Origin: Flavipsychrobacter sp.
GTDB lineage: Bacteria; Bacteroidota; Bacteroidia; Chitinophagales; Chitinophagaceae
NCBI GenBank assembly: GCA_024508935.1
Contig: JANINW010000019.1
Location: 92,823-156,822, forward strand
Direction of reading: 5' to 3'
DNA length: 64,000 nucleotides
Shown: positions 50,859-53,989 of the stretch, piece by piece
Layout: the number at the start of each line of letters is the position of its first letter
Numbering within the stretch: position 1 is the first letter of the stretch
Notes under the pieces: model-generated
Seen by the model: the letters and a program-made list of their open reading frames with translations, nothing else
The model's database searches: none
Told to the model about the DNA's origin: nothing
Position numbers and translations under genes: made by a program

Positions 50859-51063
50859 TGTTAAGAAGTTTGGCTAAAATGAGCGCGAAGCTACTGGCAG
50901 CGCAATGGGTGAACAATTATGCTGCGTTATGAAATAATTAGCGAATTGTTGCCCCAGTATGAATTGATAATGCCTGCATGTTTACTGCATTGATAGCATG
51001 TGGCTGATGAATTCAAATGAACTTTTTAATGAATAACACATACGACTGGTAACCCATGTAAAA

Positions 51064-51099
51064 AATAAAGCCCCGCATCTGCTGGGGCTTTATTTTTTA
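51064..51099. terminator. Terminator downstream of the multicopper oxidase
   Basis: AATAAAGCCCC / GGGGCTTTATT with a nine-base loop and T runs on both strands. It lies 13 bases after the oxidase stop on the minus strand. Confidence 0.85.
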
Positions 51100-51107
51100 A
51101 GTTATTC

Positions 51108-52427
51108 TTAATGACAATGATGCTCGCTGAGCGAAGGAACATAAGGCTTGCTGCCGTCTATCACTTCGAAATTGGCCATCATGCCTGCCTCATGATGTTC
51201 CAGTATATGACAATGGTACATCCATTTGCCGGGCCGGTTATCGGGCAACCAGGCTATTTTTATAGTGGTGCGTGGTTTCAAATTGTACGTGTCTTTCCAT
51301 GCGCGATAAGCAAGCGCCTTGCCGTTTTCCTCAAGTACCTGGAAGAAAAAACCATGCAGGTGAAAAGGATGGTCCATAAGGCTGACATTAGATACTTCCC
51401 ATACCTGCAATTCGCCTATCACCACAGGTCCGTCGTTGGCGTGTAGCGTATTGTTCACCTTGAAATCCAAACCGTGCTTTATGCTGGGCCCTACCGATAG
51501 CTTTATTTTCCTGTTCACTGCTGCATCTTGTGTAGTCAGTGGTTCAATAGTTCTCAATTGTACAGGCAGGTGAGCTACAGATGGTTTCGATTCCAGTACT
51601 TTAACAGTAGCATATGTTTTGCGTTTCGATTTTAAGAAGGTCATACGGTTATAGGGTAACGTTTCCAATGCAAAAGTTTCAGCTGCTTCAAATCCACCCA
51701 TAGCAATATCCAGTCTTTCTCCCGGTGTTATCAATGCTTCTGTAACGGTTTGTGCCGTTTCCAGCAAACCACCGTCGGTACCTATGATGCTGAATGGCTT
51801 ACCGCCCATGTACAACAGGAAATACCGCGCACTGGCTGCGTTTATAAAACGCCATCTTTCCGTCTGCCCTGCGTGTATTTCTAATGCCGGTGCTTCTTTG
51901 CCATTTATAAGTGCAATATTTCCTTCCTTACCATCATGGCGCTCTTTGAAGTGATTGAGTTTTTTAGATTCCACGAAACGGTTGTCTGGTGTAAGTTTCA
52001 TATCATCTATCATGAATACGCGGTCATTATCGAAAACGGGATCGTTATCATCTTCTATAATTAAAGAACCATACATGCCGCGTTCCATTTGTACCGTTTC
52101 GTTGGCGTGAGAGTGGTACCAGAATGTACCCGCATCGGGTGCGGTGAAGCGGTATTCAAAAGTTTCGCCGGGCATAATGGGTCTTTGTACTTCGCCGGTA
52201 CCATCCATAGATGCGGGCAACCTAAGACCATGCCAGTGTATAATAGTAGCTTCGTCCAGGTTGTTGGTCACTTCTATTGCTAAGGTGTCGCCTTTTTTGG
52301 CACGCAGTTCAGGGCCGGGTAGCTGGCCGTTAAATCCCCATGCTTCAATTGTTTTTCCCTGGGCAAGCTCCCATTGAAATTTACCGGCTTCAAGCTTGTA
52401 GTGTACTGTCTTAGGTTGGTGTTGCAT
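51108..52427 (-). CDS. Multicopper oxidase without a signal peptide
   Basis: The 439-residue product has three cupredoxin domains and all four copper signatures: HWHG (IIHWHGLRLP), WYHSHA, HPFHLHGF and the T1/T3 site HCHILEHHEAGMM with an axial Met. It belongs to the CotA/CueO/laccase group and should oxidise a substrate with reduction of O2 to water; Cu(I) is one possible substrate. The N-terminus MQHQPKTVHYKLEAGKFQWE has no signal peptide or Tat motif, and the longer frame (to 52487) starts upstream of the -7 box and has none either. Divergent from a metal-binding AraC-type regulator gene. Confidence 0.9.
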   Translation of the reverse strand: MQHQPKTVHYKLEAGKFQWELAQGKTIEAWGFNGQLPGPELRAKKGDTLAIEVTNNLDEATIIHWHGLRLPASMDGTGEVQRPIMPGETFEYRFTAPDAGTFWYHSHANETVQMERGMYGSLIIEDDNDPVFDNDRVFMIDDMKLTPDNRFVESKKLNHFKERHDGKEGNIALINGKEAPALEIHAGQTERWRFINAASARYFLLYMGGKPFSIIGTDGGLLETAQTVTEALITPGERLDIAMGGFEAAETFALETLPYNRMTFLKSKRKTYATVKVLESKPSVAHLPVQLRTIEPLTTQDAAVNRKIKLSVGPSIKHGLDFKVNNTLHANDGPVVIGELQVWEVSNVSLMDHPFHLHGFFFQVLEENGKALAYRAWKDTYNLKPRTTIKIAWLPDNRPGKWMYHCHILEHHEAGMMANFEVIDGSKPYVPSLSEHHCH

Positions 52428-52449
52428 TGTACTGTGTTTTAATTGAGTG

Positions 52450-52457
52450 CAAAAGTA
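52450..52457 (-). promoter_or_regulatory. -7 box of the multicopper oxidase
   Basis: The minus strand reads TACTTTTG, an exact TAnnTTTG match, with 22 bases between it and the ATG. The same octamer stands before the cysteine-rich peptide gene, and each lies exactly 16 bp from a copy of the 42-bp element. Confidence 0.7.
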
Positions 52458-52473
52458 TATCGCAGGGTAAGGG

Positions 52474-52515
52474 CAGCTGTTATACAACCTTTGGTTAGCT
52501 TTATATAATTTTGGG
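52474..52515 (-). promoter_or_regulatory. 42-bp regulatory element, copy A
   Basis: Read on the minus strand it begins CCCAAAATTATATAA and ends TATAACAGCTG. It matches copy B (53120-53161) at 33 of 42 positions without gaps. It ends 16 bp before the oxidase -7 box. On the plus strand it contains TAATTTTG at 52506-52513, the probable -7 box of the regulator gene, so binding here could control both divergent genes. Confidence 0.75.
52506..52513 (+). promoter_or_regulatory. -7 box of the regulator gene
   Basis: TAATTTTG matches TAnnTTTG and lies 29 bases before the ATG at 52543, inside regulatory element A. A regulator bound to A would compete with RNA polymerase at this box, which predicts autoregulation. 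Confidence 0.55.
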
Positions 52516-52542
52516 CGTGTTGTTTACCACAACCATTTATTT

Positions 52543-53118
52543 ATGGACGTACATGTTTTAATGATAAAGAATATGGTTTGCAACCGCTGCGTGATGACGG
52601 TGGAAGATATACTGAACCGCGCAGGTATTGCATATAATAAAGTGCAGCTGGGTGAAGTATATACAGCAAGCCCGCTCACAGAAGCGCAAAAAGCATTGCT
52701 GTCTGAAAAGCTGGAAGCGGTTGGCTTTAAGCTGATAGATGACCGTGTAAGCAGTATAATAGAGCGGCTGAAGCAATTAGTGATAAAGCGTGCCCGTAAT
52801 GAAGTAAATGAAGAAGAGGCACGCCTTAAATTATCCAATTACCTTACCACGCACCTGCACAATGAATATACTTACCTCTCCAACCTGTTCTCATCAGTAG
52901 AGGGCCGGACGATAGAGAACTATTTTATAGAGCAGCGTATAGAATATGTAAAAGAGCTGCTGATATATGATGAGATGAGCCTTTCGGAAATAGCGCTGGA
53001 GCTGAATTACAGCAGCACCGCGCATTTATCGGCACAGTTTAAAAAGGTAACAGGCCTTACACCTTCTTATTATAAAGAAGTAGGTGCAGAGCGCAGAAAA
53101 GGACTGGATGCAGTGTGA
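52543..53118 (+). CDS. AraC-family regulator fused to an HMA-like metal-binding segment
   Basis: The 191-residue product starts with an HMA-like half (residues 1-75): MIKNMVCNRCVMTVEDILNRAG holds the metal-binding pair C13 and C16 in the MxCxxC form of copper chaperones. The rest (about 95-187) is an AraC/XylS DNA-binding domain with two helix-turn-helix units: HLHNEYTYLSNLFSSVEG, then EMSLSEIALELNYSSTAHLS and FKKVTGLTPSYYKE. It probably senses Cu(I) or a related ion and activates the flanking genes. Inverted copies of a 42-bp element flank the gene on both sides. Confidence 0.87.
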   Translation: MDVHVLMIKNMVCNRCVMTVEDILNRAGIAYNKVQLGEVYTASPLTEAQKALLSEKLEAVGFKLIDDRVSSIIERLKQLVIKRARNEVNEEEARLKLSNYLTTHLHNEYTYLSNLFSSVEGRTIENYFIEQRIEYVKELLIYDEMSLSEIALELNYSSTAHLSAQFKKVTGLTPSYYKEVGAERRKGLDAV

Positions 53119-53119
53119 A

Positions 53120-53161
53120 CCCAAAATTATGTAACACGAAGCCAAAGTAGTGTAACAGCTG
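53120..53161 (+). promoter_or_regulatory. 42-bp regulatory element, copy B
   Basis: It begins CCCAAAATTATGTAACA and ends GTGTAACAGCTG. Two direct TGTAACA repeats, at 53130-53136 and 53151-53157, are 21 bp apart, two helical turns, as in AraC-type operators. It ends exactly 16 bp before the TACTTTTG box of the cysteine-rich gene. It starts two bases after the regulator stop codon and is inverted relative to copy A. Confidence 0.78.
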
Positions 53162-53177
53162 AGGCACTGCCGCGTTC

Positions 53178-53185
53178 TACTTTTG
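53178..53185 (+). promoter_or_regulatory. -7 box of the cysteine-rich peptide gene
   Basis: TACTTTTG matches TAnnTTTG and lies 25 bases before the ATG at 53211. No TTTG -33 box is seen at the usual distance, which fits an activator-dependent promoter. Confidence 0.7.
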
Positions 53186-53210
53186 TGTCATAATCAAAAA
53201 CAAATTTTTT

Positions 53211-53336
53211 ATGAAACAAGAAACAGTAAATGCTAAGAATTGCGGAACAGGTAACGATGTAAAATGTGGCAATGCAAATTGCAGTTGTGAAAATTGTACT
53301 TGCGGAAGTAATTGCACTTGTGCTAACTGTGCCTAA
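53211..53336 (+). CDS. 41-residue cysteine-rich metallothionein-like protein
   Basis: The product has nine Cys among 41 residues (11, 19, 24, 26, 29, 31, 35, 37, 40), arranged as C-x-C and C-x-x-C motifs with Asn, Ser, Gly and Thr spacers: CGNANCSCENCTCGSNC and then TCANCA. It has no His and few hydrophobic residues. This is the composition of a metallothionein, which binds Cu(I), Zn or Cd through clustered thiolates in the cytoplasm. It has a clear promoter, a strong terminator and its own regulatory element next to the metal-binding AraC regulator gene. The coding potential rests on the Cys pattern and context, as it is too short for statistics. Confidence 0.82.
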   Translation: MKQETVNAKNCGTGNDVKCGNANCSCENCTCGSNCTCANCA

Positions 53337-53355
53337 GCTTTAAGGTATTAGAAGC

Positions 53356-53387
53356 AAAAAGGCCCCGGATATTTCCGGGGCCTTTTT
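53356..53387 (+). terminator. Terminator of the cysteine-rich gene
   Basis: Perfect 13-bp arms AAAAAGGCCCCGG / CCGGGGCCTTTTT with loop ATATTT, ending in a run of T, 19 bases after the stop codon. Confidence 0.9.
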
Positions 53388-53419: not shown

Positions 53420-53989
53420 ATGATACCACCAGAGTCTCCATACCTGTTTACCTCTGCACGTCTTGGTTTTCGCAACTGGCAGGAATCTGACATAGCACCC
53501 ATGGCCGCCATCAATGCCGACCCTTTGGTGATGGAGTTTTTCCCGGCGGTAAAGACCTATGAAGAGACGGCAGATTTTGTAAAGCGTATGCAGCAGCAGT
53601 TTGCCGAAAGAGGCTATTGCTATTTTGCAGTAGACAGGATCGATAATAATACATTCATAGGTTTTATCGGCCTTTCATGGCAAACATTCGAGACAGATTT
53701 TACACCTTGTGCAGATATAGGCTGGCGGCTTGCCCATGCTGCATGGGGCAATGGCTATGCTACCGAAGGCGCGAAGCGCTGCGTGGAATATGCTTTCAAT
53801 GAGCTGCAGCTAAACACTGTAATGTCAATGGCGCCAAAGCTCAATGCGCGTTCAGAAGAAGTAATGAAAAAAATAGGGATGCAGAAAGTAAAAGATTTCA
53901 CGCACCCTTTGCTGTTGCAGGATAAGCGGTTGAAAGCATGTGTGCTGTATAAAATAGAGCACCCTACTGCCGCCGGGCGCGTTCATTAA
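53420..53989 (+). CDS. GNAT-family N-acetyltransferase, RimJ/RimL type
   Basis: The 189-residue product has the GNAT fold of the ribosomal-protein acetyltransferase type: LFTSARLGFRNWQESDIAPMAAINADP at the start, a central FIGFIGLSWQTFETDFTPCADIGWRLAHAAWGNGYATEGAKRCVEYAF (split in reading: acetyl-CoA site GNGYATEG) and a C-terminal LNARSEEVMKKIGMQKV. The substrate is unknown; the group acetylates N-termini or small amines. Its last 26 bases overlap the convergent glycosyltransferase gene. Confidence 0.88.
   Translation: MIPPESPYLFTSARLGFRNWQESDIAPMAAINADPLVMEFFPAVKTYEETADFVKRMQQQFAERGYCYFAVDRIDNNTFIGFIGLSWQTFETDFTPCADIGWRLAHAAWGNGYATEGAKRCVEYAFNELQLNTVMSMAPKLNARSEEVMKKIGMQKVKDFTHPLLLQDKRLKACVLYKIEHPTAAGRVH

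Follow-up and report, generated by a model that had tools for sequence, protein, structure and literature searches.

What links a multicopper oxidase gene, a divergent AraC-type regulator gene and the gene of a 41-residue, nine-cysteine peptide, and why do inverted copies of one 42-bp element flank the regulator? These are the questions raised by a short locus within the 64,000-nt stretch of the Flavipsychrobacter sp. genome (contig JANINW010000019.1) analyzed here; all coordinates are positions in this whole window, and G000 denotes its own genome. A preliminary description, made from the letters of the window, saw a self-contained metal-response cassette of sensor, detoxifier and buffer, and the three genes, the small peptide and the MxCxxC segment of the regulator (MVCNRC) are all where it placed them (Table 1). 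Our reading, to which we assign a probability of about 0.78, sees the regulator as a one-component activator of the AraC type that responds to Cu(I) and covers the -33 region of its target promoters. An N-terminal HMA/CopZ-like domain with an MxCxRC motif would sense cytosolic copper, while the C-terminal AraC domain would bind two direct half-sites 21 bp apart; with the proximal half-site ending at about -33, the bound protein may cover or replace a weak -33 element and thereby help the Bacteroidota sigma-A holoenzyme at a TAnnTTTG box, in what would be a class II geometry. Switched on in this way would be the gene of the cysteine-rich peptide, which would act as a buffer, that of a multicopper oxidase in the cytosol, and three remote operons, on contigs C11, C17 and C36. 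The sequences themselves show the domain architecture, the anatomy of the operator, its fixed spacing and its recurrence near copper-type genes; the identity of the metal, direct binding, activation as opposed to repression, autoregulation and the functions of peptide and oxidase are inferred.

As judged from sequence and a predicted structure, the regulator joins an HMA/CopZ-like domain to an AraC DNA-binding domain, as had been proposed. The latter is recognized directly by HTH_18 (61.6 bits, cut-off 33.6) and HTH_AraC (37.3, cut-off 26.6), and both Pfam and the predicted fold indicate the two helix-turn-helix motifs of an AraC/XylS domain. For the sensor domain, a profile of 48 regulators, compared with PDB sequences, matched HMA chains of Cu-ATPases at whole-chain E values of 1.7e-6 and 2.1e-6, with no single stretch of those chains under E 0.01, and its positions 1-60 matched CopZ 6ff2 in one stretch (E 0.0042), with positions 72-175 matching AraC-type HTH chains. 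The window regulator itself scored against the NCBIfam CopZ model at E 0.0035, under the cut-off. A structure model built from an alignment (predicted local distance difference test score, pLDDT, 89.7), which replaced a single-sequence prediction (pLDDT 60.3), begins with the order beta-alpha-beta-beta-alpha-beta, that of an HMA domain, and continues in helices. In Foldseek searches with it, AraC-type domains came up at E <= 0.001, and for CopZ chains the probabilities were 0.92-1.00 but the E values 0.12-0.22 (0.98-1.00 and 0.12-0.20 for 2l3m, 6ff2 and 2qif). The HMA/CopZ-like fold is thus predicted together with an MxCxxC motif, and M-V-C-x-R-C is invariant in alignment A2 (the window regulator and 47 of the 80 regulators in the regulator-fetched set described below), which was partly chosen by that motif, and nearly invariant in alignment A1, whose 31 rows were chosen without it. 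At E <= 1e-25, 180 of 395 sampled genomes of the phylum carry a member of the family. Among the 15 of 29 plasmid records listed, its relatives bear the name AraC family in 10 cases, helix-turn-helix in 3 and response regulator in 1, and 1 has no name.

Copies A and B, the elements on either side of the regulator gene, are inverted 42-nt arms that are 79% complementary, matching at 33 of 42 positions as had been described, and each consists of two direct half-sites of about 17 bp with a 21-bp period (the half-site pair is CCCAAAATTATGTAACA and GCCAAAGTAGTGTAACA, spaced 21 bp). Taken from the window alone the inverted repeat is only modestly unlikely, a 33-match 42-nt repeat being reached in 1 of 150 dinucleotide shuffles of positions 52440-53345; comparative evidence across genomes settles that the elements are real. 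Each arm lies 16 bp from an identical TACTTTTG, and the two spacers differ, again as described. The same description treated TACTTTTG as a -7 box, and it is indeed present at both the oxidase and the peptide promoter, but there is nothing special in it: it reads as an ordinary Bacteroidota -7 box, an instance of the sigma-A consensus TAnnTTTG given in PMC6847099 and PMC9723704. If the box is counted as -12 to -5, the proximal TGTAACA of copy B sits at about -39 to -33. Since the weight matrix used to find operators in relatives contained -7 columns, the spacing was tested separately with the half-sites only, excluding the 16 seed sites and loci L106-L144 and L232-L234; TTTG stood at the same offset in 86 of 121 non-seed tandem sites and full TAnnTTTG in 29, against 5 sites in the reversed control, and the spacer positions carry less than 0.2 bit each (107 sites). 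The fixed distance between operator and -7 box is real, and the view that it is not the by-product of a recent duplication is borne out.

The preliminary description had proposed a search for the element and its spacing in related genomes, and such a search finds the operator recurring beside the regulator. The matrix, trained on the 16 seeds, detected 51 sites (15 of them seeds) in 32 of 40 fetched regions, and none with the reversed control in 525 kb. A further set of loci was fetched by the regulator, namely the best 80 of 590 confirmed loci from a scan for NMVCxRC or SxQFKxxTG; here there were 59 sites, none of them seeds, in 50 of the 80 loci, and again none in 922 kb for the reversed control. 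Of the 59 genes that come first behind these sites, 34 encode a CPC-type P-ATPase and 13 others an HMA or CopZ-like protein; that of locus L152 encodes a cysteine-rich peptide. CPC is characteristic of pumps for Cu(I)/Ag(I) (PMC11213822). Because the operator precedes CPC-type P-ATPase and CopZ-like genes in relatives, and given the HMA domain, copper is the likely signal, as suggested earlier.

The sensor motif itself divides the family. The fetched loci contain 153 non-identical regulators, of which 123 carry MxCxRC, 16 MxSxRC and 14 neither of the two. MxCxRC is over-represented in the 80 regulator-fetched loci owing to the scan motifs, and the comparison was therefore restricted to the other fetched loci, for which no motif was used and some of which were taken because of their site or peptide: 31 of 45 MxCxRC regulators there have a copper-type gene at a distance of up to 5 kb (17 of 45 if only P-ATPase or CopZ genes are counted), as against 0 of 16 MxSxRC regulators. 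With the regulator-fetched loci added, the contrast is 98 of 123 versus 0 of 16. An operator lies within 5 kb of 5 of the 16 MxSxRC and 80 of the 123 MxCxRC regulators, and two MxSxRC regulators are sisters in a tree of 78 regulators (without that of genome G461). The MxSxRC paralogues, in which serine replaces the first sensor cysteine, are found among loci L070, L080, L086, L104, L244-L252 and L256, some of them beside what appear by eye to be sensor-kinase, response-regulator and Dps-like genes, as well as cupin-like genes, one of which was checked and scored 25.9 bits with Cupin_2 (cut-off 27.2).

The cassette is not self-contained. At up to 3 mismatches the tandem pattern occurs five times in the genome of the window, spread over four contigs, and four times if the -7 box is included (reversed controls 0 in both cases); these sites precede the oxidase gene, the peptide gene and the operons on C11, C17 and C36. 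The C11 operon encodes an HMA-MauE membrane protein followed by a His/Met-rich protein; that on C17 an esterase and then a protein without a family match but with an outer-membrane look; and that on C36 an HYC_CC_PP protein, an HMA-like protein and a TonB receptor. The -7 box of C36, TAAATTTG, is 32 nt from the half-site instead of 22, one helical turn further, so that this operator (L148, G000:C36:73213-73247) lies 10 bp farther from its -7 box than elsewhere. The C17 operon was located solely by its site, and we tie it to the regulon because its relatives (54% and 49% identity) adjoin the regulator in genome G461. The regulator probably also controls its own gene, since copy A overlaps a candidate -7 box, TAATTTTG, facing it. 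Four P-ATPases were found in this genome, one CPC-type like CopA, one CPC-type of CcoI look, one CPH-type and one without either motif; the CPC and CPH enzymes (L267, L268 and L270; G000:C37, C27 and C30) have no operator upstream, unlike many relatives.

The peptide has CxC motifs and the cysteine pattern NCxCxNCxC, and matches no Pfam or NCBIfam family at E up to 1, known metallothionein families (SmtA/BmtA) included. A degenerate DNA pattern for it, run against 396 genomes of the order, matched 41 places in 36 genomes, and 7 of the 30 places examined are cysteine-rich open reading frames (ORFs) with an ATG, an operator ending 25-39 nt before that ATG in five and being absent in two; a crude peptide rule based on cysteine numbers also picked up ORFs that arise by chance, and its results do not enter the counts given here. 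L152 and G461 bring operator-linked cysteine-rich peptides with a regulator to seven genomes, own included, six of which have the order regulator, site, peptide, with the peptide coming first in L152. The six peptide-linked regulators other than that of G461 fall in one seven-row tree set (support of 99 in the Shimodaira-Hasegawa-like approximate likelihood ratio test, SH-aLRT), whose seventh row, L153, comes from a short contig that lacks such a peptide. A different cysteine-rich peptide, of 43 residues, lies behind an operator-like site (score 29.7) near an HMA-AraC match at L090 (G014:C10).

The oxidase, by comparison, finds support neither as a core part nor as a detoxifier of the standard periplasmic kind. 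Its Cu-ligand motifs are present (HWHG, HSH, HPFHLHG and HCHILEHHEAGM), the CueO equivalog model gives 221 bits against a cut-off of 525, and no signal peptide is seen by eye at the N-terminus, MQHQPKTVHYKLE. At E <= 1e-70 homologues occur in 3 of 395 phylum genomes, the own genome, G461 (63%, the one homologue of that identity among the 394 others) and G615 (37%); at E <= 1e-40 they occur in 5 of the 59 genomes surveyed for the operator, the own genome being one and the other four being 32-33% identical, and we rejected the oxidase as a conserved component on these counts. More distant relatives, below 60% identity, are carried by 66 plasmid records. The regulator, site, peptide and oxidase are consecutive in G461, where relatives of the C17 esterase and its partner lie divergently beside the regulator. 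The oxidase and esterase promoters there (L235, G461:C14) both have the motif CCTTTTRTGACGCCTTGTTGACC 23 nt before CACCTTTG, and this motif has three copies in G461 but is absent from the own genome. Both oxidases, that of the window and that of G461, are without a signal peptide by inspection, which makes a cytosolic role likely; the enzyme is a rare, apparently cytosolic addition.

Two terminator-like repeats bound the locus (Table 1), and a GNAT acetyltransferase gene at 53420-53989, beyond the terminator, appears unrelated.

Table 1. Genes, operator copies, promoter boxes and terminator-like repeats of the locus, in window coordinates
Feature	Position	Strand	Basis
Multicopper oxidase, 439 aa	51108..52427	-	ORF; Pfam Cu-oxidase_3, Cu-oxidase_2 and Cu-oxidase above cut-off
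-7 box TACTTTTG, oxidase promoter	52450..52457	-	Sequence; fits TAnnTTTG
Operator copy A, tandem half-sites (distal ~52499-52515, proximal ~52478-52494)	52474..52515	-	Inverted-repeat and pattern scans
TAATTTTG, candidate -7 box for the regulator gene itself, within distal half-site of copy A	52506..52513	+	Sequence; inference
HMA-AraC regulator, 191 aa, MVCNRC at residues 11-16	52543..53118	+	HTH_18, HTH_AraC; family profile; predicted fold
Operator copy B, tandem half-sites (53120-53136, 53141-53157) with a 21-bp period	53120..53161	+	Sequence; inverted-repeat and pattern scans
-7 box TACTTTTG, peptide promoter	53178..53185	+	Sequence; fits TAnnTTTG
Metallothionein-like peptide, 41 aa, 9 Cys	53211..53336	+	ORF; Cys-rich peptides behind operator elsewhere
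Terminator-like perfect inverted repeat 3' of peptide gene	53356..53387	.	Inverted-repeat scan
Terminator-like perfect inverted repeat 3' of oxidase gene	51059..51099	.	Inverted-repeat scan

Other explanations start from the same elements. That copies A and B are a recent duplication without function might be read from their 33/42 identity and its rarity among shuffles, but an operator and spacing kept in many genomes, with unconserved spacers, contradict this origin of the repeat, which we rejected and which can practically be dismissed. Another transcription factor might recognize the elements, with the regulator a mere neighbour. In a set of 59 genomes that includes the own one, the operator pattern (up to 3 mismatches) has 57 matches, spread over 30 genomes, and its reversal has 14; 31 of the 57 lie within 20 kb of a regulator (12 of 18 at up to 2 mismatches; the distance count left out 6 weak partial rows of 74 regulator rows); the other 26, farther away or on other contigs, are what such a factor might leave. 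The regulator, however, is present in 40 of these genomes, and the 19 without it have just 5 matches, all at 3 mismatches, compared with 6 for the reversed pattern; together with the sites in 50 of the 80 loci, for which the regulator was the sole criterion of fetching, this makes a different factor very improbable. It is also conceivable that the HMA-AraC protein is a repressor released by metal, as operators overlapping -33 can block polymerase and copy A overlaps the candidate -7 box of the regulator gene; we consider this unlikely, because tandem direct half-sites ending at -33, at a fixed distance from the -7 box, fit class II activation of the AraC type. Finally, the operator mechanism might be the same but the signal thiol stress or a soft metal other than copper (Ag, Zn, Cd or Hg). 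HMA domains with MxCxxC can bind Zn, Cd and Hg too, and that of the C11 protein is matched by mercury and Zn/Cd models in addition to CopZ; against this, 34 of 59 sites precede CPC P-ATPases, others precede CopZ-like genes, and the oxidase belongs to a copper-enzyme family, so that a signal other than copper seems improbable to us.

It is important to note that several observations count against a copper-responsive activator acting at these sites: besides the 26 distant pattern matches, 30 of the 80 regulator-fetched loci have no site above the matrix threshold, the window regulator searched as a single protein has no Pfam HMA match, and no operator was found in the 544-700 nt upstream of any of the four P-ATPases of the own genome. 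The G461 oxidase and esterase promoters share their other motif instead of the operator. The copper-type neighbours, for their part, were called by regular expression within 5 kb of the regulator, 9 of the 14 regulators with neither sensor motif have such genes nearby, and the 0 of 16 for MxSxRC does not amount to 16 independent events because these proteins partly share ancestry.

Comparison with known systems places the proposed activator among the AraC/XylS proteins, such as AraC and MarA/SoxS, with which it has the AraC HTH domain in common. At araI, tandem direct half-sites lie 21 bp apart next to the promoter, and the same arrangement is seen here; those activators carry a cupin or other ligand domain, whereas here there is an N-terminal HMA sensor and a Bacteroidota -33/-7 promoter. 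Like CueR, CsoR and CopY the regulator likely controls genes for copper P-ATPases, chaperones, metal-binding peptides and oxidases, but it belongs to a different protein family with a different DNA site and a CopZ-like sensor, and the DNA-binding domains of these three are absent among all 7 of its Pfam matches and the best 25 of 31 NCBIfam matches. The bacterial metallothioneins SmtA/BmtA and MymT are likewise short and cysteine-rich, with CxC motifs and probably a metal-regulated promoter; the present peptide differs in its cysteine pattern and in having no family match. Three Cu-oxidase domains and their ligand motifs are common to the oxidase and those of the CueO or CopA type, from which it departs in its apparent lack of an export signal and its score far under the CueO cut-off. 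The copper genes of Bizionia argentinensis (PMC11213822) likewise include Bacteroidota copper P-ATPases and HMA proteins; as regulators that study reports relatives of MerR and CopY in which the known Cu sites are missing, two candidates of the ArsR type and possibly a two-component system, and AraC is not mentioned anywhere in its text. No title naming an HMA-AraC copper regulator was found in literature searches that covered partial title listings and few subscription journals, and neither this pairing of sensor and DNA-binding domain nor such an operator of a metal-responsive regulator was found described there.

Cytosolic copper sensing in Bacteroidota seems poorly known, and we regard it as an even call that the phylum detects cytosolic Cu(I) mainly through HMA-AraC proteins, a class of sensors distinct from CueR, CsoR and CopY whose operator is widespread and rigid in its geometry, and that the Cys-to-Ser paralogues keep this operator and answer a stress other than copper. 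Because the operator is recognizable by sequence, the regulons can be listed and tested genome by genome, and the split between MxCxRC and MxSxRC offers a natural comparison for signal specificity.

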